Shown here piece after piece: positions 1,327 to 22,017 of a stretch of DNA of 48,211 nt. Position 1 is the stretch's first letter, and each line of letters opens with the position of its first letter. The stretch comes from Gammaproteobacteria bacterium (GTDB lineage Bacteria > Pseudomonadota > Gammaproteobacteria > DSM-19610): assembly GCA_026197075.1 (NCBI GenBank), contig JAPHQV010000012.1, positions 1-48,211 of the forward strand, in the 5' to 3' direction. The position numbers and the translations under genes are program-made. The notes under the pieces were generated by a model. That model did no database searches. It worked only from the letters and a program-made list of their open reading frames with translations, and had not been told where the DNA came from.

Positions 1327-1577
1327 TCTGAAGGTTTGTCATTTTCAGATGGAAATTAGGCGGCGGCTGAGGGCCCAACGAGAAGCCCGCTTCAGAACCT
1401 GATGGATTGGATGTAAGTAGTGTGGATGTGGATATCTCAGCGAAGTGCGGAATTCCATAGCCGTCGATCCGGTCACTGCAATCGATTGATTCAGGTATTG
1501 AACAGTAATCCAAAATAATAGTGACTTACGGTTAACCATGAGCATGATATTTATATCGAAATTTCAAATAGTAGGCG
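1327..1577. other. Gap where hsdS would be expected
   Basis: About 250 bases with no convincing gene. The only hsdS-like trace is the ATG overlapping the hsdM stop, whose frame stops near 1403. The 3' half is AT-richer than the flanks and probably contains the promoter for the next gene. I see no target-recognition domain in any frame. Confidence 0.5.
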
Positions 1578-2420: not shown

Positions 2421-2453
2421 CTATGCAGTAATACTGATCGGAGGGAATATTTG

Positions 2454-3146: not shown

Positions 3147-3180
3147 CCACCTTGGATCGTAGGCCTTGCCTGGATCCTGG

Positions 3181-3215
3181 TTGACAAATAGATATAAAAT
3201 ATTACTATTCGTCAA
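3181..3215 (+). promoter_or_regulatory. Promoter and overlapping palindromic operator of the xre-immA/mazF operon
   Basis: A perfect -35 TTGACA (3181-3186) is followed after 16 bases by TACTAT (3203-3208) as -10. The same bases form an inverted repeat, TTGACAAATAG at 3181-3191 against CTATTCGTCAA at 3205-3215, matching at 10 of 11 positions around a 13-base AT-rich centre. An operator covering both promoter boxes directly upstream of an XRE-type gene suggests autorepression. It also argues against a start at 3166, which would put the promoter inside the gene. Confidence 0.65.
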
Positions 3216-3237
3216 CCCTGTTCTCCGGGACTCGATT

Positions 3238-4422: not shown

Positions 4423-4765
4423 GCCCCGGCGCGGGGAGATCTGGTGGGTCAACCTCGAACCGACGGTGGGCAGTGAAATCAGAAAAAAGCGCCCCGTGGT
4501 CGTCATTAGTTCTGATGCCATCGGCCGGCTGCCCATCAAGCTCTGCGTGCCAATCACCGGCTGGCAGGACAAGTTCGCCAAAAATATATGGCATGTGCGC
4601 ATCGATCCCGATGCGACCAATAACATCAAGAAGCCCTCCGTCTGCGATGCTTTGCAGACACGTTGCCTCGACCAGGCCCGTTTCATCAATAAGCTGGGAT
4701 GCGTGCCGCCGAGTCTGCTGGATGAAATCACGGCGGCCCTGGCTGCAGTGGTTGAGTTCCAGTGA
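4406..4765 (+). CDS. mazF: MazF/PemK-family mRNA interferase toxin
   Basis: 119-residue MazF/PemK-like protein, a ribosome-independent RNase family that stops growth by cutting mRNA. Diagnostic stretches are RRGEIWWVNLEPTVGSE, then KRPVVVISSD with the conserved Arg, and CDALQTRCLDQARF near the end. The ATG at 4406 is chosen because AGGGAGG at 4391-4397 precedes it by eight bases and the conserved RGEIWWV begins ten residues in; an in-frame ATG at 4361 would add unrelated residues. The start lies inside the 3' end of the XRE-ImmA gene. No classical MazE is present, so the XRE-ImmA protein is the candidate antidote; this is inference from order and overlap. Confidence 0.85.
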   Translation: MSSTTRPRRGEIWWVNLEPTVGSEIRKKRPVVVISSDAIGRLPIKLCVPITGWQDKFAKNIWHVRIDPDATNNIKKPSVCDALQTRCLDQARFINKLGCVPPSLLDEITAALAAVVEFQ

Positions 4766-4890
4766 GCTGCTCTGGCGCGGCGTCATGAAAGGGCACGGCA
4801 TGGATGTATAAGCTCTCCGAGGCGGTTTTCACGATGCCCCAAAGCATGCGAAAAATAATAATATAAAAGTTATTTTATAAAACTTATTAA

Positions 4891-4906
4891 ATAATATAAA
4901 TATTAT
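4891..4906. promoter_or_regulatory. AT-rich palindrome upstream of the mystery protein A gene
   Basis: ATAATAT and ATATTAT form a perfect 7-2-7 palindrome just upstream of the promoter at 4915-4942. The whole stretch 4848-4945 is very AT-rich in an otherwise GC-rich window. The AATAATAT core recurs at 5503 and 5543, so it may be bound by the neighbouring helix-turn-helix protein. Confidence 0.4.
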
Positions 4907-4914
4907 ATTAAACA

Positions 4915-4942
4915 TTGACTATACAAATATAAATGTTATATT
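4915..4942 (+). promoter_or_regulatory. Sigma-70 promoter for the mystery protein A gene
   Basis: TTGACT (4915-4920) and TATATT (4937-4942) are separated by 16 bases, each differing from consensus at one position. The start codon is at 4977, giving a leader of about 28 bases. Confidence 0.6.
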
Positions 4943-4976
4943 CCTGTTCCGTTCATATACAGAATAGGCCACTATC

Positions 4977-5447
4977 ATGCGTCCTGAAGATCGCGCAACA
5001 GCACGCCGACAGCTTGATAAGCGATTGAATTCATGGCGGGAATTGCACAACCAGGTGCGTCCGCCGCGTGGCTGGATCAAAGCCATCCGCGAGGCCCTGG
5101 GCATGACGGCCGCCCAGCTTGCCGAGCGCCTCGGTGTCAGCCAGCCGCGCGTTTTCACGATGGAAAAGGCGGAGGCCACCGGTGCGATCACCCTGGACAG
5201 CCTGGAACGGGCGGCGAATGCCCTGGACTGCCAGCTGGTCTACGCGCTCGTGCCCAGAAAACCGCTCGACCAGCTCGTGCGGGAACGTGCCGAGATCAAA
5301 GCGAAGCAACGCCTGAAGTCCGCCAGCCATACGATGGTGCTGGAAGCGCAGGGTGTGGATGCAGCGGATGAGCGCGAGCAGTTCGAGCACCTTGTGCGAC
5401 AGCTGATCGAAAAAGGCGGCTCGAAACTGTGGGAGGCGGATGCGTGA
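4977..5447 (+). CDS. Mobile mystery protein A (helix-turn-helix regulator)
   Basis: 156-residue protein matching the 'mobile mystery protein A' family: an N-terminal basic stretch, PRGWIKAIREALGMTAAQLA leading into a helix-turn-helix at about 43-63, then ITLDSLERAANALDCQLVYALVP. The family normally precedes a Fic-type 'mobile mystery protein B' and behaves as its regulator or antitoxin; that pairing is family knowledge. Here the stop overlaps a GTG by four bases (GTGA, 5444-5447), as expected for the A-B pair, but B is broken after about 14 codons. It has its own AT-rich promoter. It may still regulate the complete Fic gene 190 bases downstream. Confidence 0.8.
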   Translation: MRPEDRATARRQLDKRLNSWRELHNQVRPPRGWIKAIREALGMTAAQLAERLGVSQPRVFTMEKAEATGAITLDSLERAANALDCQLVYALVPRKPLDQLVRERAEIKAKQRLKSASHTMVLEAQGVDAADEREQFEHLVRQLIEKGGSKLWEADA

Positions 5448-5578
5448 CCGATCATCTGCTGGAACAGGATGACGCATCCACCCCTGCCGTCCGGCAGGCG
5501 GAAATAATATGGATCTTTTATGCCCTCCATATTGTTCATTTGAATAATATGGATTACCATGCGCTTGCATATTATTGA
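5444..5578 (+). pseudogene. 5' stub of mobile mystery protein B (Fic-type)
   Basis: A GTG start overlapping the end of the mystery A gene opens a frame whose first residues, VTDHLLEQDDASTP, resemble the beginning of mobile mystery protein B, where a T-P-L motif introduces the conserved body. After the Pro the similarity ends, the base composition becomes AT-rich, and the frame stops at 5576-5578 after 44 residues. The remaining Fic body is absent. This looks like a deletion that joined the stub to the upstream region of another Fic gene. Identification rests on the start position and a short sequence, so it is moderate. Confidence 0.5.
5503..5576. promoter_or_regulatory. Two tandem inverted-repeat operator candidates
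   Basis: AATAATATGGAT occurs at 5503-5514 and again at 5543-5554. Each is followed by an inverted partner: TCCATATTGTT at 5526-5536 (10 of 11 bases match) and CATATTATT at 5568-5576. The two units are 40 bases apart, about four helical turns, immediately upstream of the Fic gene, which suits cooperative binding on one face of the DNA. The mystery A protein is the nearest candidate binder. Confidence 0.5.
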
Positions 5579-5610
5579 ATGAAACAATAACAATAAATTT
5601 ATAACTTATT

Positions 5611-5632
5611 GGATAATAAAGGGGTTTTATCC
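5611..5632 (+). promoter_or_regulatory. Hairpin enclosing the Fic ribosome binding site
   Basis: GGATAA (5611-5616) can pair with TTATCC (5627-5632), with the AAAGGGG Shine-Dalgarno sequence (5618-5624) in the loop just before the ATG at 5635. It is a short stem, so a regulatory role is only possible. Confidence 0.3.
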
Positions 5633-5634
5633 AC

Positions 5635-6813
5635 ATGCCGCGCAGCGGAAGCTTTCGACGCACCCTCCGGGAATACACCGCCTTTTTCCCGGCCGACTTG
5701 CCCCCGGAGCCACCGATTAACATGGATGGCAGCCTGAGTCTGTTGCTGTCCGATGCCGACCGCGCCCTGGGCGCCATCAACACCATCGCCAGCATCCTGC
5801 CCAACCCCGAATTGCTGGTCGCCATGTTCATCCAGAAAGAGGCGTTGCTCAGTTCCCAGATAGAAGGCACCCAGTCCTCACTGGTGGATGTGCTGGGGGC
5901 GGATGAAGACAACGAACCCACCCAGGACGTGGGCGAGGTGGTCAACTACATCCACGCCATGCGCTATGGCCTGAAGCGTCTGCTCGATGACGAGTTCCCC
6001 ATGTCGCTGCGGCTGATCCGCGAGATCCATGAAATCCTGCTCACCCAGGTGCGCGGCGGGGTATCGGCACTCACCCCCGGCGAGTTTCGCACCAAGCAAA
6101 ACTGGATCGGTGGCGCCAACCTGAGAACCGCGCGCTTCGTGCCGCCACCGCCGCACGAAATGCAGGCCAGCCTGGATAATCTGGAAAAATACCTGCATGC
6201 CGACGACGAATGCCCGGTGCTGGTGCGCTGCGCGCTCATCCACTACCAGTTCGAAACCATCCATCCTTTTAACGATGGCAATGGTCGCCTGGGCCGCCTG
6301 TTGATCACCTTTTATCTGGTTTGGCGCGGTGTGCTCGATGAACCCATGCTTTACATCAGCGCCTACCTCAAGACCCACCAACAGGAATACTACGACCGCC
6401 TGCAACAGGTGCGCACCGATGGCAACTTCGAGTCCTGGGTCAAATTCTTTCTGGAGGGCGTGGTTACGGTGTCCGAACAGGTGGTGCAAACCACCAAGCG
6501 CATCCAGGCCCTGGAGCGGCGCGATACCGACCACATCCTGGCCGGCAACGTCGGCCATGCCGGCGTGTTGCTGCTGCGCAAACTCATGGAACAACCCGTG
6601 ATGCGCGTCAAGGATGTGGAAAAGGCCGTCGGCGTGAGTTACTCCAAGGCCAATAATCTCATCGCTGAGATGGAAGGCTTAGGGATACTCAAGCAAATCA
6701 CTCCCGGCAAGCGCAACCGCAAATTCAAATACGATGAATATGTCAGCATACTGGCCGAAGGCACCGAACCCACGCACCTGACCGGCACCAGAGAACAGGC
6801 CCGAAGCGAATAA
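5635..6813 (+). CDS. Fic-family AMP-transferase with winged-helix tail
   Basis: 392-residue Fic protein that would transfer AMP or a related group to target proteins. The Fic loop HPFNDGNGRLGR is at 210-221 with all catalytic positions present. An inhibitory helix of the (S/T)xxxE(G/N) type is at 73-78 (SSQIEG), placing it with class II, self-inhibited Fic proteins. A winged-helix-like domain covers about 325-380 (VKDVEKAVGVSYSKANNLIAE). Fic genes of this type often lie in type I restriction loci, and the hsdR remnant begins five bases after the stop; the ancestral order was probably hsdM, (hsdS), fic, hsdR. The gene appears intact although the surrounding restriction genes are not. Confidence 0.88.
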   Translation: MPRSGSFRRTLREYTAFFPADLPPEPPINMDGSLSLLLSDADRALGAINTIASILPNPELLVAMFIQKEALLSSQIEGTQSSLVDVLGADEDNEPTQDVGEVVNYIHAMRYGLKRLLDDEFPMSLRLIREIHEILLTQVRGGVSALTPGEFRTKQNWIGGANLRTARFVPPPPHEMQASLDNLEKYLHADDECPVLVRCALIHYQFETIHPFNDGNGRLGRLLITFYLVWRGVLDEPMLYISAYLKTHQQEYYDRLQQVRTDGNFESWVKFFLEGVVTVSEQVVQTTKRIQALERRDTDHILAGNVGHAGVLLLRKLMEQPVMRVKDVEKAVGVSYSKANNLIAEMEGLGILKQITPGKRNRKFKYDEYVSILAEGTEPTHLTGTREQARSE

Positions 6814-6817
6814 GCGG

Positions 6818-7126
6818 ATGGATAGCAAAGACAAAAAAGCTCAGCGAAATGGATATCTGCGACCTGTTCATCACCCCCGCGATCCAGCAGGCGGGCTGGG
6901 ACCCAATGACAACCATTACAGCGTCAGCCATGGCATACAGCAGGGCCTTTCGCGGTATTGAAGATGCAGCCGAAGCACTGGTCACCCAGCCCTACCACGA
7001 AGACATGTCGGGTAAAGGGCCCCGCTACTATCAGGTCGAGGCGATCAACCGCCCCATCGAGGCGGTGGCCAGTGTAAAAGGCGCGTGTTGCTGGTCATGA
7101 CCACCGGCACCGGCAAGACCTACACA
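6818..7126 (+). pseudogene. hsdR: hsdR remnant with deletions and frameshifts
   Basis: Pieces of the type I restriction subunit appear in correct order but different frames. MDSKDKKA starts at 6818. After a frame change, SEMDICDLFITPAIQQAGWD follows from about 6840. Then the original frame carries NDNHYSVSHGIQQGL (about 6900-6950), equivalent to the part after the nuclease EAK motif. Next come GPRYYQVEAINRPIEA (about 7018) and, in a further frame, VLLVMTTGTGKTYT, the Walker A motif, ending near 7126. The nuclease core and the whole helicase after Walker A are lost. A working restriction subunit cannot be produced from this locus. Confidence 0.8.
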
Positions 7127-7164
7127 ATGCCGCGAACTCGTTTCGACCGACCGAGGCCAGCATC

Positions 7165-7842
7165 ATGCTTGCAGATGAGCCTGGCGAGTTCGAGCAGGCA
7201 CGACAGCGTTGCAACATCGCGACGGCTGCTGCGCTGGATTCGCTGGACCGCAAGCCGCTTAAGGAGCGTGATGAGGCCTGTGGAGCCTTGATCGTGTCTC
7301 CATTCGGGGTGCTTGTGATCGAGACCAAAGACATGGCCGGATGGATATTCGGCAGTGAAAAACAGGCGCAATGGAGCCAGAAGCTCTACCGGAAAACCTT
7401 CCGCTTCCAGAATCCATTACGGCAGAACTACAAGCATGTGAAGGCGGTGGAGGAAGTGCTGGGTGTTCCGCCCGGCACGGTGCATTCCGTTGTCGCGTTC
7501 ATGGGTGGTAGTGTATTCAAGACCCCGATGCCTGAAAACGTGACTCATGGCATTGGCTATATCCGGCACATCAAGCGGTTTACCCATCCTGTGTTTACCA
7601 CGGATCAGGTGCAGTCGTTTATTGATGATCTGGAATCAGGCCATCTCAAACCTGGCTTGCAGACGCATCGGGAGCACGTTGCGAACCTGGAAAAGCATGC
7701 TGACCCTGATGCGGATCGCATCTGCCCGGCTTGTGGCAGTGCGATGGTTATCCGGACGGTGCGCCGTGGAGATAAGGCAAGACAGCAATTTTGGGGGTGT
7801 ACCAGTTACCCGAAGTGTCGGGTGATGCAGGACCTCGGATAA
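7165..7842 (+). pseudogene. 5'-truncated NERD nuclease with topoisomerase-type zinc finger
   Basis: From about residue 41 the frame is a clear NERD (nuclease-related) domain: ALIVSPFGVLVIETKDMAGW, then NPLRQNYKHVKAVEE. It ends with a four-Cys topoisomerase-type zinc finger at Cys187, Cys190, Cys212 and Cys218 (ICPAC, then GCTSYPKC). In intact NERD proteins a catalytic Asp (as in x-x-I-D-H) lies just before IVSPFG; here it is replaced by ACGA, and the preceding 40 residues do not look like the family. The E-x-K pair (Glu53, Lys55) remains. The 5' end was probably lost when the hsdR remnant was joined to it. The frame itself is open, so a shortened protein could be made. Confidence 0.68.
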
Positions 7843-7884
7843 AAAGCGCGGATGCGCGGCTAACCGGATAAAGGCAACCACTCC

Positions 7885-8553
7885 ATGTGCGGACGTTTCA
7901 CCCGCTCCAGACCCATAGAGGAATACGCCGAGCATTTTCAGGCGGCGCTCACCCAGGCTTCCTCACCCTCGTACAACGTCTGTCCGTCTGATGACATCCT
8001 GGCCGTGGTCGCCGAGCCCGATCAGTCCCGCCATCTGACCTGGTTCCACTGGGGCCTGGTCCCGTTCTGGTCCCAGGGGCCTGACAGACGTTTTTCCATG
8101 ATCAACGCCCGTGCCGAGACCCTGACGGAGAAACCGGCCTACCGCACAGCCTTTCGCCAGCACCGTTGCCTGGTCGTGGCGGACGGATTCTATGAATGGC
8201 AGGCTACCGGTGATGGCAAGCAGCCCTTCTACATCCGGCTCAAATCCGGGGAGCCCATGGCCATGGCGGGCTTATGGGATCAGTGGGAGGCGAAGGATGG
8301 CAGCCAGAGCATCAGCTCGGCCACCATCATCACGATCACGGCAAACGCTCTGATCCAGTCCATCCACGATCGCATGCCGGTGATCGTTCCGTTGGAAAAC
8401 GCTCAATCCTGGCTCGACCCGGGACTCACCGATACCCGGAAACTCACCGAATACCTGAAACCGATCGATGCCAATGCCCTGGAGGCCTGGCCGGTGTCGC
8501 CGCGGGTGAATTCGCCGACGCACCAGGGGGCGGATTTGATAAGGCCTATATGA
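7885..8553 (+). CDS. yedK: SOS response-associated peptidase / abasic-site shield (SRAP)
   Basis: 222-residue SRAP-family protein (bacterial YedK, eukaryotic HMCES), which forms a covalent crosslink with abasic sites in single-stranded DNA through its N-terminal Cys. Cys2 follows the initiator Met (MCGRFT). The other active-site residues are visible: Asn74 (MINARAET), Glu104 (DGFYEW) and His161 (IHDRMPVI). Length is normal for the family. It lies downstream of nuclease remnants, in its own frame with a 42-base gap. SRAP genes are often carried on mobile or defence regions, so this copy may be part of the island. Confidence 0.93.
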   Translation: MCGRFTRSRPIEEYAEHFQAALTQASSPSYNVCPSDDILAVVAEPDQSRHLTWFHWGLVPFWSQGPDRRFSMINARAETLTEKPAYRTAFRQHRCLVVADGFYEWQATGDGKQPFYIRLKSGEPMAMAGLWDQWEAKDGSQSISSATIITITANALIQSIHDRMPVIVPLENAQSWLDPGLTDTRKLTEYLKPIDANALEAWPVSPRVNSPTHQGADLIRPI

Positions 8554-8692: not shown

Positions 8693-8989
8693 CTAACAGT
8701 CACGACACTGGATATCCGTGTTCTGCGCCGCCTATCTTCGTGCGCGTTTCGGTGACGCCTGGTGCCTGTCTCCCGAGCAATCCCTGCTGCTGCATACCGG
8801 CAACCGGACGGTTCGCGGCGGCAACTGGAGCCCTGATGGCGACGATGGCGACCGTGCGCACCGAGTGTCACCGCCGGTCTGGTCCGCCCGGCCGACCTCG
8901 CCGGACTCCGCAACGATCAGGTCTATATCCGGCGTTCGATGCATGTGCCACCCCGGCGGGAGGCTGTCCGTGACATGCTTTTCTCCTAG
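8693..8989 (+). pseudogene. Two-piece remnant of a second Fic-family gene
   Basis: From about 8718 one frame reads VFCAAYLRARFGDAWCLSP then EQSLLLHTGN, typical of the early part of a long Fic-family protein. From 8873 a different frame reads AGLVRPADLAGLRNDQVYIR then SMHVPPRREAVRDML, which resembles the region after the Fic core in the same family, and stops at 8987-8989. The Fic motif itself and several hundred residues between are missing. The 3' end meets the convergent barrel gene stop. Assignment rests on remembered family sequence. Confidence 0.55.
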
Positions 8990-11900
8990 ATCTTACCGAT
9001 CAGATTCACGAACCAGCCGCGATTATCGTAGGACAGATCGGTAAGGTCATCGGAGAAGTCGGTGAAATTGTAACCCACGCCGATCTTGACGTTGTCGTTG
9101 AGGTGTCGATAGACACCGACGAGTGCGCCGAAATGGCGGTCTTGCGCGGCCCGCACATCCAGCATGCGCCCTTCCAGCAGTAAATCCCATTCGTGTGTCC
9201 AGTGCAGGTCCGCGCGCAGGACATACAAATGCGCGAGACTGTCCTGCCACTGCCCACCCACGCGCGTGTCCTTCAACTCACCCAGACGCAGTCCGTATTT
9301 GCCGCCGACCGACAGCCAGGGTCTGAGATCGTAGATGGCGTCCGCGGACAGCACGTGGCTGCGCTGCGCGTAGTCGGCTAGCTTGTCGTTGCCAGTCAGC
9401 TGATTCGGCGGCGGCAGGGTGTAGAAGTAGGTGTACTTCAGCAGCGCGTTGAGGCGATTGTGGTCGACAGGTCGGAACGCATAGCCGGACACGAACTCGA
9501 CATAGTCACCATCGTAGAAATTGCCCTGTGAACTTTCGGACACCGACAGATTTAGCCGCCCCAGATAGCGCCAGTCCGGGTTGATCTGATAGCCCAGGGT
9601 ATTGCGCAACAGCCAGGTGCGACGATCGCCGGCGGTCGCCTCTTCCCTGCGGTATTCGAGATTGCCCGCGTACTTGACCGCATCGTGGTGATACCCCATT
9701 GAAAGGCCGGCAGCTCGCCGTTTCATGTCGCCGGCCAGCGGATCGGCCAGTTCGCCAGCCTCCAGCTTCACGCCATAGGTCCAGCGATCGTTCGGCGCGA
9801 GATCGACGCCATATGCGTGTGTCAGTCCGCTCGGACCCTCGCCGTGCAGGAAACGTTCCTCGCCGTACACGCTGACACTGTCCGAGAAGCGCGTGCGCCC
9901 GCCGCTGGTGAGACGGCCCTGGCGGCCACGATAGCCGGTATCGGTGCGATCGGTATCCAATTCATAGTTGAGATAGAGGCTGCTCTGATCGTCCAGGGTA
10001 TAGTTGCCGCTGGCCAGGGCTCCCAGGCCGCCGTCGCCGCCCGAAATCTCGCCGGTCAATGCAAAGCGTTTATTGATCTGGCGTGCGCCTCCGATACCGA
10101 GCCGGTCGTTGTCGGAGCGCGTCGCATCCTTGTCGACCGTATTCTGTATAAAGCTGTACACGGACCAATCGGGTTCGTCTTTGACCGGCGCGTCCGGCCG
10201 GTACTCGCCCTTGAGAATGACATCCGTGCGCTGGCCTTCTTCGTTCAGGGTCGGACTGGCGGTCTGCACACTGAGCGTCCGGTCGTCATTGCGTACGCCG
10301 GCGGCGACGGCCCAGTTCTCGGTCAGATGCTGACGCACGTTGACTTCGGCCGCTGTGGTGCTGCGCGTGCCGGCATCCAGTTCATCCGCTTTGAGATTGA
10401 GTGCGGTCGCATCAGTGACATTCCAGTCGACGGCCGCACCCTGCTGGGTGATGCCCTCGCTGCCCGTGATCTGTCCGGGCGCGGAGAATCCGGCCTCGCG
10501 ATCCTGCCAGTAGACTTTTCCCCGTCCCTTGGCGTCCGCCTTCAGCTCCGAGAAATCCACGCCGGCCTCGACGCGGTTGGCATCGGCGTCACCGCCAGGG
10601 GAGGCCGCGCCGTTGAAATTGAAACCGCCGTCCCGCGACAGGTTGCTGCCGCTGCCGGTGCCGTCGGAATTGGCGGTTTCCAGTTTCAGATAAGTGCCGG
10701 GCGTACTGCGCAGAGTCAGATCGGCGCCTTTTAGGGTCTGCTCCATGCCGACGCCTTCCTGACGGTATCCAGTCAGACCGATGCCGACATGGTCGTTCGC
10801 CCAAAACTGCGCACGACCACCGTTGACGAGATCATCCGTTTCGGTAAGGCCCGGAGTGTATTCATAGCTGACCACCAGGAACGCCGGATGACCCGACAGG
10901 GACCCCGTGCGTACCAACGTCGAACTGTCCGCGGTCGAACCCAGCGGCTCGCGCAGCAGGATGCGGCCCTGCAGATAATTCACATCGTAGTCCTGGGCCG
11001 GCGCCAGATAGCGCGTCTCCAGCACCAGGCCGCTGTCGTGGTCGCGCACCTCGATCCAGACGCGCTCCGACCCCAGAGTCACATCCTGGCGCTGGAGGTA
11101 GTACAGTGACCCACCGGTGCCGCGGAATTCGTCGCGGCCGGGCAGACTGCCGGGATCGGCGATAAAACCCTCGAATATTCCGCGCCTTTCACCGAACCCG
11201 GTTGCGTCTTCCGACACCAGCTTTACGCGCGCACCGTACAGACCTCGATTGTACTGCACCAGATCGCTGCCGGTGATGGAAGTCTGGAAATTACCCCACA
11301 TGACCTGCGAATCACCGCGCTCAAGCTTGACGTAGAACTTGCCCTGAGTGGGCGCATCCTCGATCGTCGTGCTGTCGTCGCCATACACCGGATAGTAACG
11401 CTCAGCGTCCAGACGCCGGAGCAGATAACGAGGATCCTTTGACGAGAAGTTGCTGAACAGATCTTCGATCGGCTGCTCGCGCGTATCAGCGGCCGCCGTG
11501 AGCAGATACTTGCCCTTGATCTTGCCTTTGAGGTAGAAGGCCAGGCGACCGTCCACATAAACCTTGTCGGCATAGTGATCGCTGTCGTCGACCGTCACCA
11601 GCTGCGCCGGACCGCTGGTGTCATTGCGACCCAGGGTCAGATCGGCCAGGCCGACGTAGAACCATTGATCATCCGCGATTGAGATATTTCGGGTAAAGCG
11701 CGATTCCCCGCCCTGTACATTGCGAACCCTGACGTCCACATTATGCGGACCGACTGGCAGGATCTGGCGCACTGCGAACCGGCCTTCGGCATCGACCGGC
11801 ACGGGCATGTCCATGAAGTGTACCGTGTCGCCGGCCCGCAGACCGGTGCCACTCGCGGTAACCGCTGCGCCGCGCACCGGTATGTTGTGCAGAGCAAGGC

Positions 11901-12645
11901 TGTTCTCACCGTAGCCGGCCAGCAGCGGGTCACCTTGCTCCGCTTTGACCGCGCTCGCATCCGTATAGTCCGTGCGCGTCACGGCCAGCGGTTTCGCTTG
12001 GGTTTCGTCGAAATGACCCTGTGCATCGTAGACACGCAGCAGGTACCGATAGGATGCGGAACCCTCGAGTGGGGGAGTCCAGGCCGCCGCTTCGCCCAGT
12101 TCGACCGGCACTACCGCGACCGGGGTCTGCTGCGTGCTCGTGTCGCCCGTGAAGATGCGGACCTCGGCGCGCTTCACCCACGCCGCGTAGTTGCTGTAGG
12201 CCATGAATTGCACCGGCTTGCCGAGCGTGGCGCGATGCGGCGTCGCGTGGGCATTCAACCAGGGCGTCTGTTCACCGCCGTCATAACGGATCTGAATATC
12301 CGCCCGTGCCAGGGCGATATCGGTGCAGCGCTGCGCATCGGCCGCGTTGCGCGGATCTGTCTCGGCGGTGGGTTCGCCATCGACACTGACTCGAAATGCC
12401 GGTGCAATTCCTGTGTCGGCCGCCATGCATGCACCAGATTCAAGCGCATGATCTGTAACGGTTTCGCTGTTTGCCGGTAGCGCCTGCGGCCGCACTCGGC
12501 TGTTGGCGATGGATTTACCGGATTCCTCGGGCAGTTGGCAACGGTTGCCCGTGTGATCGCAGTGCTGATCACCGTCCACGGGCGTGGCGTGCAGCGAGCC
12601 GATGAGGCTGAGTCCAATGATCAGGCCAGGCAGCGTCTTGTTCAT
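8986..12645 (-). CDS. Predicted large outer-membrane beta-barrel protein
   Basis: 1219-residue protein with a signal peptide (MNKTLPGLIIGLSLIGSLHA). Two Ig-like or carboxypeptidase-regulatory-like segments lie around residues 120-310. The rest, from about 320, is rich in alternating beta strands, Asp/Asn-Gly turns and Tyr/Arg girdle patterns, as in outer-membrane barrels, ending in DNRGWFVNLIGKI. It is not recognisably a TonB receptor: no plug motif is seen. The ATG at 12645 overlaps the stop of the upstream repeat-protein gene by four bases (ATGA), and a GGGGGGAAG sequence precedes it. The pair is therefore translationally coupled, and the barrel is probably an anchor or export partner for the repeat protein. 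That role is inference. Confidence 0.75.
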   Translation of the reverse strand: MNKTLPGLIIGLSLIGSLHATPVDGDQHCDHTGNRCQLPEESGKSIANSRVRPQALPANSETVTDHALESGACMAADTGIAPAFRVSVDGEPTAETDPRNAADAQRCTDIALARADIQIRYDGGEQTPWLNAHATPHRATLGKPVQFMAYSNYAAWVKRAEVRIFTGDTSTQQTPVAVVPVELGEAAAWTPPLEGSASYRYLLRVYDAQGHFDETQAKPLAVTRTDYTDASAVKAEQGDPLLAGYGENSLALHNIPVRGAAVTASGTGLRAGDTVHFMDMPVPVDAEGRFAVRQILPVGPHNVDVRVRNVQGGESRFTRNISIADDQWFYVGLADLTLGRNDTSGPAQLVTVDDSDHYADKVYVDGRLAFYLKGKIKGKYLLTAAADTREQPIEDLFSNFSSKDPRYLLRRLDAERYYPVYGDDSTTIEDAPTQGKFYVKLERGDSQVMWGNFQTSITGSDLVQYNRGLYGARVKLVSEDATGFGERRGIFEGFIADPGSLPGRDEFRGTGGSLYYLQRQDVTLGSERVWIEVRDHDSGLVLETRYLAPAQDYDVNYLQGRILLREPLGSTADSSTLVRTGSLSGHPAFLVVSYEYTPGLTETDDLVNGGRAQFWANDHVGIGLTGYRQEGVGMEQTLKGADLTLRSTPGTYLKLETANSDGTGSGSNLSRDGGFNFNGAASPGGDADANRVEAGVDFSELKADAKGRGKVYWQDREAGFSAPGQITGSEGITQQGAAVDWNVTDATALNLKADELDAGTRSTTAAEVNVRQHLTENWAVAAGVRNDDRTLSVQTASPTLNEEGQRTDVILKGEYRPDAPVKDEPDWSVYSFIQNTVDKDATRSDNDRLGIGGARQINKRFALTGEISGGDGGLGALASGNYTLDDQSSLYLNYELDTDRTDTGYRGRQGRLTSGGRTRFSDSVSVYGEERFLHGEGPSGLTHAYGVDLAPNDRWTYGVKLEAGELADPLAGDMKRRAAGLSMGYHHDAVKYAGNLEYRREEATAGDRRTWLLRNTLGYQINPDWRYLGRLNLSVSESSQGNFYDGDYVEFVSGYAFRPVDHNRLNALLKYTYFYTLPPPNQLTGNDKLADYAQRSHVLSADAIYDLRPWLSVGGKYGLRLGELKDTRVGGQWQDSLAHLYVLRADLHWTHEWDLLLEGRMLDVRAAQDRHFGALVGVYRHLNDNVKIGVGYNFTDFSDDLTDLSYDNRGWFVNLIGKI

Positions 12646-15600
12646 CGGTTGCTTCCCCCCGGCTGATCGACCACATGGGTTTCGGTTTCGATCATCAGCG
12701 GGTAACAGCAGTCCGATTCTCCCCACAGCTGCCGGAATCGCTTGCTTACGATATCGATTCGCTCGTCCGCGAGCCCGGTTCGGGCCGTGCCGGAGTGTTG
12801 ATAGCCGATACGCAGTACTGAAGGCTGCTGTTTCAGGAGGTCGACTACACGATCGACCTGCGCCTCCCACTCGGGCCGAAGATCCGTGCTGTCGTCTGCG
12901 AAGGCCGCCGCGGTGAGATCCAGGCGGACCACTCGATGGATTGCCGCACCGAAGTCAAGACGGGTCAGTTTGCCGCGGGTGACGCGTACGACTCGCGGGT
13001 TCTCGGTGGTGACTCGATATCCGGATGGTAGCGAGCGCTCATCCAGCTTCATGATGAAATTGGCGCCGCGGTCTTCGTTGGGCACATCGGCACAGGCGAC
13101 ATGGAAACGGCCGTGTTCATCGGTGGTCACCAGCAGACCGCGCACGGTCACCACTCGCACGCCGGCGATACCCGGCTCGCCCTGATCCTGATAGCCGTTG
13201 GCATTGCGGTCATCGAACACCTTGCCGATGATGTCGGAGCAATCGAAGGTCGGATCAGGCACCACACGCACAGTCGCCGTTCCGATATTCGATACCGTCG
13301 CCCCAACCAGGTTGTTCATCACCCAAGCCTGGTTGACATAGTCGCCCTCGCTGACGCCGGAGCCTACCACCAGCACAAGTTTCACTACGCGTTCCTGCGC
13401 AGGGGAAAAGCTGAGATTCGGCCAGGTCAGACTGCGGCCGTTGATCTGCGGTTCAACCGGAACACCATCCAGCAGTGCCGTACCGACCTTGTATTTGAAG
13501 CCGGGCGGGATCTGATCGTACAGATCCATATTCGGAATGGTTGCGCTCAGATTGTTGAGCATGCGAATCGTGTAGGGCACAAGATCGCCGCGCACGACAT
13601 TCACCGACGGAGTGGATTTGATGAGCGTGATGGCGCCATCGGTAACTGGGTCGAGCGGGACGTGATTGTTCAGCACGTCCGCCGAAGTGCCCGGCGTGAG
13701 CACGAAGGACAGGTAGTACTGCGTGCTGGCAGCCGTCGCCGCGAACATCGCGGAGTTGACCGGACAGGTCGCCGGATCATGGATCGGCGCGGCCGCGGCT
13801 GGCGCATTCGCACCCGCATGCACCAGCGCGGGATCGGGTGCGGCACCGACTGTCGGCGTGTTGGTGCAGACCGGTATGATGGCCGAACCACCCGGAATGT
13901 ACCCGGCCGGCTCGACGACGGTCAGCGTGTAGGTACCCGCAGGTGCGGTGGCCAGCAACAGATACTGATACAGACCGTCTGCGCCGGTGGTCTGCACCTG
14001 ATTGGTGGAGCCGCCGATCAGGTGCAGGGCCGGATCGAAACCCGCAGGTCCGTTCAGCGTGACCACTGCACCGGGAACCGGCGCACGCGTCAGCGCGTCA
14101 TAGACGACGCCGGAGGGATCGACCGGCAGGCTCTGATTGAGCACGTTGGCGCCGCCGGCCAGGGTAAGATTGCGGATGGTGCCGTAGCTGAAGTCGACAC
14201 CCGGCTCGGTGGAAATCGGTGTACCGTAGACATAACCGCCGTTCGGGTGTCGGAATCTGATTTCATAGCCGGCACCGGGAATCAGTCCTGTGAAATCGTA
14301 GTTGCCGCCGGCAGCTGTGCTGGTGCTGGCGATCAGCGTGTAGCCGCTGTTGTCGAGCGGATCGGCACGCTGGATAATTTCCACGGTCCAGCCGGCCTCA
14401 CCGGTTCCATCGTTGTCGAGGCGGTCGTGATTGGTATCCAGCCAGACCTTGCCCGAAACATCCGCGGTGGTGGCGGTTGATTCCCCGAAGTTATAACCGG
14501 TGCCCGTCGCGCCGGCCGATGGGAACAGAATGCCGGAGAAGACATCGTTGCCGGCGCTGCCGCCGAGTGTGCCCAGGGTATCGAGACCATCGGCATTGCC
14601 GGCCGGCTGGGTCTCGGTCAGGGTGTACCCCGATCCGTTCGGGCGCGGAAGATCGCTAAATCGATAGGCACCACCCGCATCAGTGGTTGCGACAAGGCTG
14701 ATCGCATTGCCGTCGATGTCGGTTCCGGACAGGGTCACGATTACGCCTGGGATACCGGGTTCCGCGGCGTCTTTCACGCCGTCATTGCTGAGATCGTTGT
14801 AAACGAAACCGGACAGGCTGCCGCCTCGTTCGCCGAAGTCGTAGCCGGCGGCGATATCGGTTGCGGCCAGAACTACACCGCTGATGATGTCGTTACCGAG
14901 CATGCCCCCAGCGCTGCCAACGCTGTCCAGACCATCCAGCCACGCGGCCGGTTGGGTTTCTGTCACGGTATACCCGGAGCCATTGCTGGCCGGTAGACCA
15001 GTGATGAGATAGTCACCATTACTGTCGGTGAGACCGGTACGGTTGACCGGGTTGCCGCCGGCATCGGTGCCGGTCACGCTGATGGTTACATTTGGAATGC
15101 CGACCTCGCCCGGATCGCGCATGCCGTCGTTGTTGGAATCGACAAAGACACTTCCGGCGAGCCCGGCGCTGCGTTCGGCGAACAGATAACCCGTTCCGGT
15201 ATCGCCGGAGGCGACCGTGATGGCACTGATCTGGTCGTTGGCGACCGTTCCGCCGAGGGTGCCGGCTGTGTCATCGCCGTCGACATAGATCGGGGGTTGA
15301 GATTCGGTCAGTGCATAAGTGCCGGGGCGCAGACCGGCGAAGCTGTAGGTGCCGTCGGCCGCCGTGGTGGTATTCGTGCTGACGGCGTTGCCGAGATCAT
15401 CGGTACCGGTCAGATCGATTGTCACCCCTCCGATACCGGGTTCACCGGCGTCGAGCGCGCCATTGTTATCGTTGTCGTTGAAGACAGTGCCGGACAGCGA
15501 CGCCGCCTGCAGTTCGCCAAAGTTGTATTCGATCGCGGCATCGCCGGCACTCAGTACCAGATCGGCGATGACATTTCCGTAATCGATCGACGCCGGCACG

Positions 15601-18600
15601 TTGTCAGGCGTACCGGCCGAGGTCGCGCCCGTGCCCGCTGCCGCGCGCCCGGGCAGCCAGCCAGTTGGCGCCGTTTCCGTCAGCGTGTAAGTTCCTGGGC
15701 GCAGGCTGGTGAAGCTGTAGCTGCCGTCGGCTCCGCTGGTGGCCGTCGTGCTGACCGGATCGCCGAGGTCATCGGTGCCACTCAGGGTGATGGTCACGCC
15801 GTTCACACCGGTGGCCTCGCCTCCGTCGCGCACGCCGTCGTTGTCTGTGTCATGCCAGACATACCCGCTGATGCCGGTGCCCGGAAGTTCGCCGAACAGA
15901 AATCCCGTGAGTGCAGTGTTACCCGCCAGGGCAATGGAAGTGATGACGTCGGTGGTCTTGCTGTTGGCGATCACCGCCGAACCGTCGTAATCCTGTCCGT
16001 CGTAGAATCCGGCCGGCTGGGTCTCGGTCAGGGTGTAGCCGCCTGCGTCGGCCGGCGACAGATTGTTGATAGTGAAGGCGCCGCTGGCATTGGTGGTTGC
16101 GGTGCGGCTGACCGGATTACCATAGGCGTCGGTGCCGGTCAGGGTGACGGTGACGCCCTGGATGCCGGTTTCGCCGCCCTGCTGCGTGCCGTTGTCGTTG
16201 AGATCGCGATAGACAATGCCGGCGATGCTGGAGCGCTGTACATTCACGCTGCCGCACTGTGTGACGCTGTTGCCGGAGATCGGGTCGGTCTGGTCGGTCG
16301 TCGCGGTTCCGCAGTTGGTGTAGCTAGCCGCATAGGTGTTCACCCGTACCGGCACTGTAATGGTCGCCACCCGGGTGGATTCCAGCAGACCCAGATTACA
16401 GGTCAGAACCTGACCGGCGACGCCGCAGGTCCCCGAGGCCGGCGCGGTGTTGGTATTGCTCCAGGACGGTGTGGCGCCATGGAACACCATGCCTGCGGGC
16501 AGGGTGTCAGTCACCGTCGTGGTGTCGCTGTCGCCCGGCCCGTTGTTGGTGACCGTGAGCGTCCAGTCGAACGGTTCGCGCAACTGCACCGTCGCCTGCG
16601 ATGCCACCTTGGTCATGGACAGGTCGACGCGCTTCTTGAAGGTCGTTGATTCGCCTTCGGTATCGTTGGCGGCCTGGATGTCGGTCTCGTTGGCGGCGAT
16701 GCCGGCGCTGTTGTTGTGAATGTCGCCGGCGGCATCCGGAGCGGTGATCACCTGGAAATCCAGATAGCGCGTGGTGGTTGCGGTGGCGGGTAGATCCGCC
16801 AGATTACAGTTCATGGTAAGGGTGGCAGGTCCCGTGACGTCGGTATTGAGGTTGTCGCACAGGGAGCTGCCGGAGACCACGGAGCAATCATCACCGGCAT
16901 TGGCCTTGTCGCACAGGAAGCGGACGGTCTTGCTCGCCTTCGGTGCCATTGTGTCGCTGAGCACCACGCCTGTCGCGAGCGACGGTCCCTGGTTGGTGAC
17001 ATCAATGCGGTAGGTGATGATGTTGTTGGACTCGAAGCCCGGGCGCGGATCATAACCGCCCGGATCGACCAGATCCGTCTTGTTCACCAACAGATCCAGC
17101 GCCGACGGCAGGATGGTGAGCGACGCGCTTTGCTGATCGTTGCTGTTGTCGCGATCGGTAGTGGTAGTGCTCGATACAGTTGCTGTATTCGGGAGCGTGC
17201 GTGTCGGCTCGCCACTCATCCAGTTGGGACGGATCACGACCGTGATGGTTTCGGTCTGGCCGTTGATAAGATTGCCGATACTGCAGTCCAGTGTCTCGGT
17301 ACCGGCATTGAAACCCGCACAGCTGCCCTGCGTCGGCGTGGCCGAGATGAAGGTGTAGCCGGTGTCGCCGCCCGGCGTGGTGAATACGTCACTGACCTGC
17401 ACGTTCTGTGAAGTCGATGGACCGTTGTTGCGCACGGTTATGACATAGGTCGCATTGGTGCCGGCCTGCACAGATCCAGGAGTCACCGTCTTGGTGACCA
17501 ATTGCAAATCGGCTACCGGTTCGACTGTCACATTGGCGGTCGCCGAGTTGTTGCCGCGGTCAGGATCGCCCAGCACCGTGGAATTAACGCTTGCGGTATT
17601 GGTCAGGCTGCCGTCGAACAGGGGCCGGTCGACCAGAACCGTGAACACGACCGTTTCGCCGTTGAGCATGTTCTGCCCGCCCAGCATGGTGCAGGTCACT
17701 GTCCCGTTGCCGGCGTTGGTGCTGCAGGAGAACTTGCCGCCGGAGTCGTCACTGACACTGATGGCGGTGCCGCCCGCGCCACTGACGAAGCCGGGAACGG
17801 TATCGGTCACCACGACACCGGATACGGTGTCCGGCCCGTTGTTGGTCACGGTCAGCGTGTAGGTCACGCGGTCCTCGATATCGGCCAGGGTCGTGTTCAG
17901 ATCCGGCGTGGTCGCGGACTTGGCGATCTGCAGATCGGCCTGCTGCGCGGTACTGGTCGATGTGCGCGTGACACAGTCATTACTGACCACACCATCGGGT
18001 TGTCCGCCGGCATCGCTGGCGCAGGCGGTGTTGCTGAGGCTGCCGGCGTTCAGCGCCAGCGTGGTAATGGTCAGCACACTGGTCTGCTGACCAGACGCGA
18101 GTGCGGCGCCACTGTAGGTACAGGTGACGGTTTCGGGCGATCCGGCCGCGCCGCAGGACCAATTGGTTCCGCTGAACGACTGGTAGGTTTCGTCCAGACT
18201 GAGCGTGTCGGTGACGGTGATGACGCCGGTCGTGGTCTGCGGCCCGTTGTTTCGCACGCGGATGGTACTGGTCAGGTTGGCGCCTTGCGCCACCGGGTTC
18301 GGCGACTTGGTCTTGGTGACGGAGAGATCGGCTCCATCGGGCACGATGTTGAAATTGACACTGCCGGAATCGTTGCCGGTGATCGGATCAACCGTGGTCG
18401 ATGCGATGTCCGCTGTATTGGTGAAGCTACCGCTCGCCGGCGCGGTGGCCTGAATGCTGATGTTGTCGGTCGCACCGACAGCATAGCTGGCGCGGGTGCA
18501 GGTCACGGTCTGACCGGCTACGCCGCAGCTCCAGCCGACACCATTGGCGGTGACGACCGTGAAGCCCGCTGGCAGCGTATCGCTTACGCTGACATTGCTG

Positions 18601-19532
18601 GCCGCAAAAGGACCCAGGTTGCGCGGCAACAGCGTGAAGGTCGCGGTCGCCCCGCCGATCACCGGTGCGCTGACCTGCTTGGTAATGGCGAGGTCGGTGC
18701 CGATGGTGACTGTGGTGTCTTCGGTGGTGGTATTGTTGTTGGGATCGGGATCACCGGTTGTCGCCGTCACCGTCACCGCATTGGTGATGTTGCCCGTCAC
18801 CGCACCGGTCACTTTGCCGACCAGGGTGATGATCGGCGCCACTGCGCCGTTGGCCAGCGTCGCACGGGTACAGGTCACTGTCTGGCCGCTGTTGCCGCAA
18901 CTCCAGCCGCTGCCGCTCGCTGACTGGTAGGTCATGGCGGCGGGCAAGGTATCGGTCACTATCAGCGAACTGGATGCGTTCGGGCCGGCGTTGGACACGA
19001 CAATGTCGTAGCTGACTAGACCCGCCGCCGCCACTGGATCGGGTGAATCGGTCTTGGTGACCGACAGATCCGCACCGTCATTTACCGTGGTGTTCTGGGT
19101 AAGCGTGTTGTTGCCGACGCTGCCGTCGCTTGGCGTGGCATCCGCGGTCGCTGTCACGCCAATGGTGCCCGGGGTAGCCGCGGTGGTGCTGACCACCACA
19201 TCGACTACCCGGATGTCGGCCGGCGCGGGTCCGATGGAGCCGACGAGATCCCCGAAGCTGCAGGTCACGGTGCCCGGGGTGCCGCCGTCATGACTGCAGC
19301 CGGGATCGCCGCTGACCGAGGCGAAAGTCGTGGTCGCAGGTAACGGGACCGACAGTACCACGGACGGCGCGGTATCGGGGTCGCCGTTCTCGACGGTGAT
19401 GGTGTAGGTGATCTCGCCACCGCGTACCGCGGGGTCCGGCGTATCGACAAGCTGGGAAATCTGGACATCAATGGCGAGCGCCTGACCGGCGAACACCAAT
19501 GCGGTCAGCGCGAGCGCGAGCAATCTACCCAT
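12642..19532 (-). CDS. Giant secreted repeat protein: DUF11 and SdrD-B-like domains with OmpA-like C-terminus
   Basis: 2296-residue protein with a cleavable signal peptide (MGRLLALALTALVFAGQALA). Residues from about 21 to 1095 hold eight DUF11-type repeats of 110-150 residues, starting near 21, 150, 278, 397, 531, 672, 809 and 967; most open with a DLxxTK motif and contain NNGP and VTDTLP. From about 1099 come six SdrD-B-like repeats of roughly 115 residues (near 1099, 1220, 1344, 1457, 1571, 1689), each with a D-x-N-D/N-G calcium-loop pattern and a TLTETQP-like strand. A carboxypeptidase-regulatory-like unit (1807), another DUF11-like unit (1964) and a final SdrD-B-like unit (2097) follow. 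The last 100 residues resemble an OmpA-like peptidoglycan-binding fold (DDSTDLRPEWEAQVDRVVDL). A surface adhesin or sheath role is likely. Confidence 0.85.
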   Translation of the reverse strand: MGRLLALALTALVFAGQALAIDVQISQLVDTPDPAVRGGEITYTITVENGDPDTAPSVVLSVPLPATTTFASVSGDPGCSHDGGTPGTVTCSFGDLVGSIGPAPADIRVVDVVVSTTAATPGTIGVTATADATPSDGSVGNNTLTQNTTVNDGADLSVTKTDSPDPVAAAGLVSYDIVVSNAGPNASSSLIVTDTLPAAMTYQSASGSGWSCGNSGQTVTCTRATLANGAVAPIITLVGKVTGAVTGNITNAVTVTATTGDPDPNNNTTTEDTTVTIGTDLAITKQVSAPVIGGATATFTLLPRNLGPFAASNVSVSDTLPAGFTVVTANGVGWSCGVAGQTVTCTRASYAVGATDNISIQATAPASGSFTNTADIASTTVDPITGNDSGSVNFNIVPDGADLSVTKTKSPNPVAQGANLTSTIRVRNNGPQTTTGVITVTDTLSLDETYQSFSGTNWSCGAAGSPETVTCTYSGAALASGQQTSVLTITTLALNAGSLSNTACASDAGGQPDGVVSNDCVTRTSTSTAQQADLQIAKSATTPDLNTTLADIEDRVTYTLTVTNNGPDTVSGVVVTDTVPGFVSGAGGTAISVSDDSGGKFSCSTNAGNGTVTCTMLGGQNMLNGETVVFTVLVDRPLFDGSLTNTASVNSTVLGDPDRGNNSATANVTVEPVADLQLVTKTVTPGSVQAGTNATYVITVRNNGPSTSQNVQVSDVFTTPGGDTGYTFISATPTQGSCAGFNAGTETLDCSIGNLINGQTETITVVIRPNWMSGEPTRTLPNTATVSSTTTTDRDNSNDQQSASLTILPSALDLLVNKTDLVDPGGYDPRPGFESNNIITYRIDVTNQGPSLATGVVLSDTMAPKASKTVRFLCDKANAGDDCSVVSGSSLCDNLNTDVTGPATLTMNCNLADLPATATTTRYLDFQVITAPDAAGDIHNNSAGIAANETDIQAANDTEGESTTFKKRVDLSMTKVASQATVQLREPFDWTLTVTNNGPGDSDTTTVTDTLPAGMVFHGATPSWSNTNTAPASGTCGVAGQVLTCNLGLLESTRVATITVPVRVNTYAASYTNCGTATTDQTDPISGNSVTQCGSVNVQRSSIAGIVYRDLNDNGTQQGGETGIQGVTVTLTGTDAYGNPVSRTATTNASGAFTINNLSPADAGGYTLTETQPAGFYDGQDYDGSAVIANSKTTDVITSIALAGNTALTGFLFGELPGTGISGYVWHDTDNDGVRDGGEATGVNGVTITLSGTDDLGDPVSTTATSGADGSYSFTSLRPGTYTLTETAPTGWLPGRAAAGTGATSAGTPDNVPASIDYGNVIADLVLSAGDAAIEYNFGELQAASLSGTVFNDNDNNGALDAGEPGIGGVTIDLTGTDDLGNAVSTNTTTAADGTYSFAGLRPGTYALTESQPPIYVDGDDTAGTLGGTVANDQISAITVASGDTGTGYLFAERSAGLAGSVFVDSNNDGMRDPGEVGIPNVTISVTGTDAGGNPVNRTGLTDSNGDYLITGLPASNGSGYTVTETQPAAWLDGLDSVGSAGGMLGNDIISGVVLAATDIAAGYDFGERGGSLSGFVYNDLSNDGVKDAAEPGIPGVIVTLSGTDIDGNAISLVATTDAGGAYRFSDLPRPNGSGYTLTETQPAGNADGLDTLGTLGGSAGNDVFSGILFPSAGATGTGYNFGESTATTADVSGKVWLDTNHDRLDNDGTGEAGWTVEIIQRADPLDNSGYTLIASTSTAAGGNYDFTGLIPGAGYEIRFRHPNGGYVYGTPISTEPGVDFSYGTIRNLTLAGGANVLNQSLPVDPSGVVYDALTRAPVPGAVVTLNGPAGFDPALHLIGGSTNQVQTTGADGLYQYLLLATAPAGTYTLTVVEPAGYIPGGSAIIPVCTNTPTVGAAPDPALVHAGANAPAAAAPIHDPATCPVNSAMFAATAASTQYYLSFVLTPGTSADVLNNHVPLDPVTDGAITLIKSTPSVNVVRGDLVPYTIRMLNNLSATIPNMDLYDQIPPGFKYKVGTALLDGVPVEPQINGRSLTWPNLSFSPAQERVVKLVLVVGSGVSEGDYVNQAWVMNNLVGATVSNIGTATVRVVPDPTFDCSDIIGKVFDDRNANGYQDQGEPGIAGVRVVTVRGLLVTTDEHGRFHVACADVPNEDRGANFIMKLDERSLPSGYRVTTENPRVVRVTRGKLTRLDFGAAIHRVVRLDLTAAAFADDSTDLRPEWEAQVDRVVDLLKQQPSVLRIGYQHSGTARTGLADERIDIVSKRFRQLWGESDCCYPLMIETETHVVDQPGGSNR

Positions 19533-20813: not shown

Positions 20814-21911
20814 CTAGCGCACCAGCGAGTAACTCGTACTCCGTCCGCCACCCGCATCCTTACGCAGCGCGCCACGCTCGATGAGGTCGAGGATATCCCG
20901 GTACGCGGTGTCCTGTGAGCACTTGACCAGCTTGGCATATTTGGAACTGGTGAGCTTGCCCTCGAAGCCGTCCAGCACGCGGTTCAGCACCTTGATCTGG
21001 CGTTCGTTCAAAGGCGCTTTTGCGAACCGCTCCCAGAACCGGGCCTTGTCCAGCACGGCAGCCAGGGTTTCTCCGGCGCCCTCGATGGCGCGCAACAGGC
21101 AATCCAGGAACCATTCCAGCCAGGCCGTCACCTCCAGCTCTCCCTTTTGCGTCGTTTCAAGCAGACGATAATAGGTATCGCGCTCGCGGCGGATCTGGGT
21201 CGAGAGGCTGTAGAAACGCTGGCCGGTGTGCTCGGATCGGGCGAGCGCCATATCGGCGATGGCGCGGGCAATGCGCCCATTGCCGTCATCGAAGGGATGC
21301 ACCGTGACGAACCAGAGGTGCGCGAGTCCCGCCCGGAGCAGCGGGTCCGTGTCATCCGACGTCTCGAACCAGCGCAGCAAGCACGCCATCTCCCCTGCAA
21401 CCCGCGCGGCGGGTGGTGCCTCGTAATGGACCCTTTCCTTTCCGATGGGTCCGGAGATGACCTGCATGGGGCCCGTGTGGTCGTCGCGCCATGCCCCGAC
21501 CCGGACCCGGGTCATGCCGCTGTAGCCGGTCGGGAAGAGGGCGGCATGCCACGCGCACAGCCGCGCTTCGGTCAACGGCTGCTCGCATGCGCCTGTCGCG
21601 TCCAGCATCATCTCAACCACGCCTTCCACGTGGCGATCGGCCGTCACCAGGCCCCCAAGCTCGAGTCCGAGCCGTCGGGCCAGGGAGGAGCGCACTTGCT
21701 CGCGCTCCAGCACCTCGCCCTCGATCTCGCTGGACTTGATGACGTCTTCGGTCAGGGTGCGCAGATGGGCCTCGCTGCGCAGGTCAAAGCCCAGGGATTC
21801 CATCTTGCCCAGCAGGCGCCCCTGCTCACGGGATACCTGCGCGAGTCGCTTCGCGAGCCGGGTTTCGTCCCACCGGAAATTGGGCCAGTCCGTTTGTTCC
21901 CAGATGTACAT
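20814..21911 (-). CDS. Fic-family protein with DUF4172 N-terminus and winged-helix C-terminus
   Basis: 365-residue Fic protein. The N-terminus MYIWEQTDWPNFRWD is the DUF4172 signature. The inhibitory motif SSEIEG is at 60-65 and the complete Fic loop HPFDDGNGR at 205-213. The last 55 residues (SSKYAKLVKCSQDTAYRDIL, then a basic Ser-Tyr wing) look like a winged helix, so the protein may bind DNA. The ATG at 21911 is chosen over an upstream in-frame codon because the family begins MYIW and GGAG stands ten bases before it. Inverted-repeat half-sites overlap its ribosome binding site and upstream region, suggesting autoregulation. Confidence 0.88.
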   Translation of the reverse strand: MYIWEQTDWPNFRWDETRLAKRLAQVSREQGRLLGKMESLGFDLRSEAHLRTLTEDVIKSSEIEGEVLEREQVRSSLARRLGLELGGLVTADRHVEGVVEMMLDATGACEQPLTEARLCAWHAALFPTGYSGMTRVRVGAWRDDHTGPMQVISGPIGKERVHYEAPPAARVAGEMACLLRWFETSDDTDPLLRAGLAHLWFVTVHPFDDGNGRIARAIADMALARSEHTGQRFYSLSTQIRRERDTYYRLLETTQKGELEVTAWLEWFLDCLLRAIEGAGETLAAVLDKARFWERFAKAPLNERQIKVLNRVLDGFEGKLTSSKYAKLVKCSQDTAYRDILDLIERGALRKDAGGGRSTSYSLVR

Positions 21912-21917
21912 GGTGGT

Positions 21918-22017
21918 TATTCTCCGCACACTATGCGGAGAATATAGCCCGGTAACTCCGCCCGGGCAAGCTTTTTATCCGCATGATATGCGGAGAATAG
22001 GTGGCTTATTCTCCGCG
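21918..22017 (-). promoter_or_regulatory. Operator array upstream of the second Fic gene
   Basis: TATTCTCCGCA (21918-21928) and TGCGGAGAATA (21934-21944) are perfect inverted partners with a 5-base spacer. A third copy, TGCGGAGAATA, is at 21989-21999, itself in a shorter palindrome with TCCGCAT at 21978-21984. A fourth, TATTCTCCGCG, is at 22007-22017. Four copies of an 11-base half-site within 100 bases, nearest one over the Fic ribosome binding site, indicate repressor binding. Confidence 0.6.

Follow-up and report, generated by a model that had tools for sequence, protein, structure and literature searches.

The window analysed here is the whole 48,211-nucleotide stretch of a contig assigned to Gammaproteobacteria bacterium. 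Two genes on its minus strand, here called A and B, encode a giant repeat protein and a large predicted barrel protein:

12642-19532, minus strand: gene A, 2296-aa fibre protein (ORF translation, Pfam)
8986-12645, minus strand: gene B, 1219-aa predicted outer-membrane barrel protein (ORF translation, AlphaFold2 model)
12642-12645, minus strand: ATGA overlap of the A stop and the B start (read from sequence)

The TGA stop of A occupies 12644-12642 and the ATG of B begins at 12645, which bears out an earlier note on this DNA that had described the stop of A as overlapping the start of B; directly 5' of this ATG stands GGGGGGAAG, plausibly the ribosome site for B. We took B from the ATG at 12645; the mechanical ORF opens earlier, at GTG 12870, and is longer because that start lies within A. 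A simple scan found no terminator 3' of B. Signal peptides of A and of B were judged by eye; that of A, at approximately residues 1-20, is of the ordinary type.

Domain architecture of the two proteins

Protein A consists of two long repeat arrays and a conserved C-terminal module:

16233-19463, minus strand: DUF11 (CLIPPER) array of A, approximately residues 24-1100 (Pfam)
14478-16238, minus strand: SdrD_B-like array of A, approximately residues 1099-1685 (Pfam)
12645-14144, minus strand: conserved C-terminal module of A, residues about 1797-2296 (relatives' coverage, model)
12645-12938, minus strand: degenerate OmpA-like end of A, residues about 2199-2296 (alignment, model, profile)

Pfam places DUF11 in nine stretches of A (E 5e-132, 433 bits against a curated cut-off of 24.6) and SdrD_B in seven (E 9e-83), in agreement with the eight or more and six or more repeats, respectively, counted in the earlier note. 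Tandem DUF11 above the cut-off in an exported protein is the criterion for a DUF11/CLIPPER fibrillar adhesin, and A has this makeup; no adhesive tip domain was recognised in it by Pfam or NCBIfam. According to two reports, DUF11 is the isopeptide domain CLIPPER, a proven stalk domain in a Gram-negative fibrillar adhesin (PMC12617251), and surface hook filaments of Litorilinea are built from giant DUF11 chains (PMC13319060). A simple motif search of A found a Lys-Asp-Asn pattern in four repeats (residues 155, 280, 402 and 533 onward) that resembles the isopeptide triad and is read as candidate bonds only, and Cys pairs 9-12 residues apart recur within the repeats. Many of the repeats are probably locked by isopeptide and disulfide bonds, and the two patterns together make it likely that A folds and is oxidised in the periplasm before or during export.

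The repeats vary among relatives of A, being covered in about 30% of them, and lengths range over 2000-6200 aa (up to 6195 aa, in an 18.6 kb Sulfitobacter plasmid gene); the C-terminal module, unlike the repeats, is conserved where B occurs. Most positions in the last ~450 residues are covered in 96-100% of relatives, and residues 2077-2196 carry 71-86% majority residues. The last 340 residues were modelled (pLDDT 88.6) as a CLIPPER-like, an SdrD_B-like and an OmpA-like domain, the first of which superposes on 9ifr with Z 12.8 and rmsd 3.0 over 120 aligned residues.

The very end of A is modelled as strand-helix-strand-helix-strand, and by profile it weakly resembles the OmpA domains found in relatives of B (36 columns at 80% probability). 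The OmpA-like end named in the earlier note thus holds as a fold, but there is no Pfam match to OmpA (PF00691) at this position. The peptidoglycan-binding GHTD / LSxxRA motif is absent from the A end and is not conserved in 39 aligned sequences; the end is predicted to be OmpA-like by fold only, and not a peptidoglycan-binding OmpA domain. The further proposal that this end holds the fibre at peptidoglycan loses its support because these motifs are lacking throughout the family; the pegs appear to lie on B or on a third gene instead.

Protein B divides into an N-terminal pair of Ig-like domains and a barrel region with two inserts:

11677-12297, minus strand: N-terminal pair of Ig-like (beta-sandwich) domains of B, residues 117-323 (model)
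8989-11667, minus strand: barrel region of B, residues 327-1219, about 38-40 predicted strands (model)
11335-11484, minus strand: barrel insert 1, residues 388-437, YGDDST..EDAPT (conservation; low-confidence in the model)
10885-11124, minus strand: barrel insert 2, residues 508-587 (conservation; low-confidence in the model)
8989-9024, minus strand: C-terminal beta-signal of B, NRGWFVNLIGKI (alignment; Gly and Asn invariant among relatives)

In an AlphaFold2 model built from 63 sequences (mean pLDDT 74.6, pTM 0.58), 42 strand runs of at least seven residues follow residue 323, or about 38-40 when the inserts are set aside. Hydrophobic alternation in the strands is 2.32, against 1.24 ± 0.14 in shuffles, and the C-terminus matches the BAM beta-signal. 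Amphipathic strands with a C-terminal beta-signal mark an outer-membrane beta-barrel, and B, which combines the two, is predicted to be such a barrel of about 38-40 strands; the barrel with Ig-like domains proposed earlier is what the model returns. If B is an ordinary outer-membrane barrel, its N-terminus must be periplasmic, and its Ig-like domains are expected in that compartment. The two inserts, which sit among the first barrel strands, are the best-conserved yet worst-modelled regions of B: conservation is 0.78 for residues 388-437 and 0.70 for residues 508-587, against 0.58 for most of the barrel, at a pLDDT of about 48. Together they may form a gate, with insert 2 a candidate plug or gate.

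Pfam and NCBIfam give no notable match for B, PF00691 being absent too, and neither a search of the PDB with the B profile nor phmmer returned a relative of solved structure. Foldseek and VIA matches are a mixture of usher, TonB receptors, SprA and SlpA, each covering only parts of B; these partial matches leave its descent unsettled, and we claim no fold family for it.

Recurrence, natural fusions and OmpA arrangements

At least 577 candidates in the genome collection encode a relative of B. We examined the best 80, and in all 76 loci with enough upstream sequence an A-like gene lies directly upstream of B (worst E 9e-78); loci L020, L027 and L028, which start near a contig edge, are outside the 76. 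The overlap of the two genes measures 4 nt in 40 of these loci and 1 nt in 26, 66 of the 76 together. In a phylum survey of 398 genomes, B was found in 57 and the C-terminal module of A in 53, with 52 genomes in common by a hand tally from two lists; the module occurs without B in one genome, and B without the module in five. Distances of A and B co-vary (Mantel r 0.82, 0 of 2000 permutations), a correlation that the shared ancestry of linked genes also yields. A and B are a genuine, recurrent gene pair. The earlier note had suggested a genome survey for the coupled pair and had named two outcomes that would speak against its proposal, a barrel predicted as non-membrane and families usually found apart, and neither came about; the 76 of 76 loci, the 52 shared genomes of 398 and the natural fusions described below place the families together, and B is a predicted outer-membrane barrel.

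Relatives of B also occur on 22 plasmid records, on 20 of them over most of the length of B, under the names TonB-dependent receptor, OmpA family protein or hypothetical protein. The annotated plasmid records that were examined have a DUF11 or SdrD_B gene upstream of the B relative; at L006 the upstream gene is labelled hypothetical and contains DUF11 repeats by profile. Among 20 genomes of the window's family, B is present in the window's genome only, and this patchy distribution suggests horizontal transfer or loss. One Microbulbifer genome has two A-B pairs about 16 kb apart (L055/L056 and L057/L058), apparently a tandem duplication. In some loci the genes upstream of A encode response regulators, GGDEF or kinase proteins, including two-component ones, and in Eleftheria a regulator/FecR/CHASE2 set; such regulators fit regulated surface structures. 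Genes for type II or any other secretion system do not regularly accompany the pair.

The two proteins also exist as one chain. At L091 a single open frame of 4480 aa comprises A, three OmpA domains and B; the lack of a signal peptide at its junction speaks against an overlooked stop. Other one-chain versions, in which a single open frame of some 1540-2420 aa contains both matches, occur in about 28 of the 52 shared genomes, about half, and in several families, again tallied by hand; by domain scans their order is DUF11-like, SdrD_B-like, OmpA, Ig and barrel in L093, L095, L102, L108 and L109, and OmpA was not detected in other members of this group. A DUF11-like gene of about 400-440 aa lies just upstream of the one-chain version in L093, L094 and L096, where a second repeat protein may accompany the fusion. 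Since the fusions join the C-terminus of A to the N-terminus of B, the end of A and the start of B would share the periplasm.

Domain scans distinguish four arrangements: A and B alone (the window and others), A followed by a B that carries OmpA, A and B followed by OmpA as a third gene (L103, L099 and the Vibrio record L005), and one chain. Scored with a profile built from these same relatives, 70 of the 80 B proteins start with 1-3 OmpA domains, most of them with wall-binding motifs. A separate OmpA-domain gene lies directly downstream of or near B in L005, L103, L099 and L104, and at L040 the OmpA gene is found on the upstream side of A. In most relatives the putative peptidoglycan pegs are OmpA domains carried by B or encoded by a third gene; the window's pair has none and, lacking the peg of most relatives, may work differently.

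Comparison with known systems

The closest parallels to A are long repeat adhesins. Acinetobacter silvestris B9T28_05395 is likewise a long exported protein with tandem isopeptide-type Ig repeats and an OmpA-like end, and a partner barrel is not seen in the accessible part of its description; the OmpA-like end of A, in contrast, lacks the peptidoglycan motif, and A bears SdrD_B repeats (PMC12617251). GhlA of Litorilinea and GhpA of Aureispira are, like A, single giant chains of Ig-like repeats, and theirs form surface filaments; their hosts belong to other phyla, GhlA has no signal peptide, and the part of the description available does not show an A/B gene pair (PMC13319060).

Comparisons for B are less direct. 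FimD, like predicted B, is a large barrel with an insert among its strands, and it passes Ig-like subunits; it is also the best VIA-align match to residues 243-837 of the B model, tied with others (Z 16.9, rmsd 13.3, 364 aligned). B differs from FimD in having no profile similarity, more strands and no chaperone gene, and the usher domain PF00577 was matched neither in B nor in the genome, while the E. coli control was positive. SprA, the T9SS translocon, is a very large single-chain barrel among the Foldseek matches of B, but TM-scores are 0.22 and below, a T9SS gene context is not seen and SprA comes from another phylum; SprA_N (PF14349) gave no match, yet the control genomes were silent too. 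Deinococcus SlpA resembles B's relatives in joining an N-terminal wall-binding domain to a large C-terminal barrel, and OmpM is a peptidoglycan-tethered barrel of the same layout; B's relatives differ from both in having OmpA and Ig domains, not SLH and coiled coil, and a constant partner fibre gene.

Several assignments were tried and rejected. The Plug (PF07715) and receptor barrel (PF00593) of TonB-dependent receptors are unmatched in B and seven relatives, and plasmid matches H4, H5, H7, H8, H9, H11 and H14 bear the TonB-dependent receptor name without domain support. An ordinary OmpA protein does not describe the window's B, from which PF00691 is absent. Autotransporter, POTRA and TPS domains are likewise unmatched in B and the seven relatives, YadA_anchor reaching only E 0.03-0.05 in two relatives of B. 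The earlier note had set the pair apart from type V secretion, seeing no such motif; the absence of a domain match stands, but the contrast is weaker than it was drawn, because in one-chain versions the repeat part is N-terminal to the barrel as in classical autotransporters. This type V order holds for the fused relatives, with OmpA and Ig in between; the window has two genes. By the tests made, A-B does not belong to the type V, usher or TonB-receptor families; it would work as a fibrillar adhesin does, with an anchor or pore of its own.

A proposed fibre on an outer-membrane platform, and its alternatives

We lean, by a little, towards a surface-fibre system in which A is retained on B by its C-terminal module and B is an outer-membrane platform and probable conduit. 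Both proteins would cross the inner membrane via Sec, and BAM would insert B into the outer membrane as an exceptionally large single-chain barrel with its two Ig-like domains in the periplasm. The C-terminal module of A would stay at the periplasmic face and dock on B, while the variable repeats would extend outside, most likely through the lumen of B, with the two conserved inserts as a possible gate. The periplasm is unlikely to have room for repeats as long as 6195 aa, so the simplest path leads the N-terminus outward through B and leaves the module inside. The complex of most relatives would be pegged to peptidoglycan by OmpA domains that B carries or that a neighbouring gene encodes; the window's copy would have to manage with B alone or with an OmpA protein encoded elsewhere. 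The system would act in adhesion. A bolder version, which we hold tentatively and consider rather doubtful, sees B as a translocon made from one chain. With about 38-40 strands it would match or exceed SprA in size, let the Ig domains of the giant fibre through after they have folded and been covalently locked, and hold the fibre's C-terminal module; it would be an undescribed outer-membrane secretion type in two-gene, three-gene or one-chain form.

B might instead be an outer-membrane/peptidoglycan anchor only, comparable to SlpA and OmpM, with A leaving the cell otherwise, for instance by type II secretion, and attaching from outside. OmpA plus barrel is a tether architecture, found in the 70 B proteins with OmpA domains; SlpA / S-layer barrels of Deinococcus are among the Foldseek matches, and the ordinary signal peptide of A agrees with such a route. 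We nevertheless judge this unlikely: the repeat part of the one-chain polypeptides starts in the periplasm beside OmpA, which does not fit attachment from outside, and secretion genes, type II or other, are not regular neighbours. We give little credence to A as a long, unexposed periplasmic scaffold that bridges wall and outer membrane and is held in the membrane by B. Its OmpA-like fold, its contiguity with peptidoglycan-binding OmpA domains in the L091 fusion and its having a signal peptide only speak for such a scaffold, but highly variable repeats and lengths of 2000-6200 aa suit exposure rather than a fixed gap, and the stalk domains are known from surface adhesins. Equally improbable in our estimate is that the pair is a classical type V autotransporter split in two, with a barrel too diverged to be recognised. 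The one-chain versions do follow type Va order, with signal peptide, passenger-like repeats and C-terminal barrel; against this stand about 38-40 strands and not 12, the OmpA and two Ig domains between passenger and barrel, and the finding that neither B nor its relatives match Autotransporter, POTRA or TPS, or YadA-anchor at a significant level.

On the surface-fibre reading, the pair, sometimes fused and recurring in hundreds of genomes, may represent a mode of giant-fibre display or secretion not yet described; we found no description of it in the open-access literature, and one may exist. Such a widespread, mis-annotated pair would provide giant Gram-negative adhesins with isopeptide stalks with an outer-membrane partner of their own and would show how these adhesins come to be displayed. 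If B is a conduit, it would offer proteins a translocation path that belongs to none of the named secretion types, and it would rank among the largest barrels formed by a single chain.

Beside the pair, the window at 16-8553 is mostly of lower GC (0.50-0.60) and looks like a mobile or defence island, with genes for an N6 DNA methylase, a NO VEIN C-terminal protein, RAMA/GIY-YIG, an HTH and ImmA/IrrE-type peptidase protein, NERD, SRAP, mobile mystery protein A and a Fic protein. Across the pair from this region, at 20814-21929, lies a gene for another Fic protein, which combines DUF4172 and Fic.
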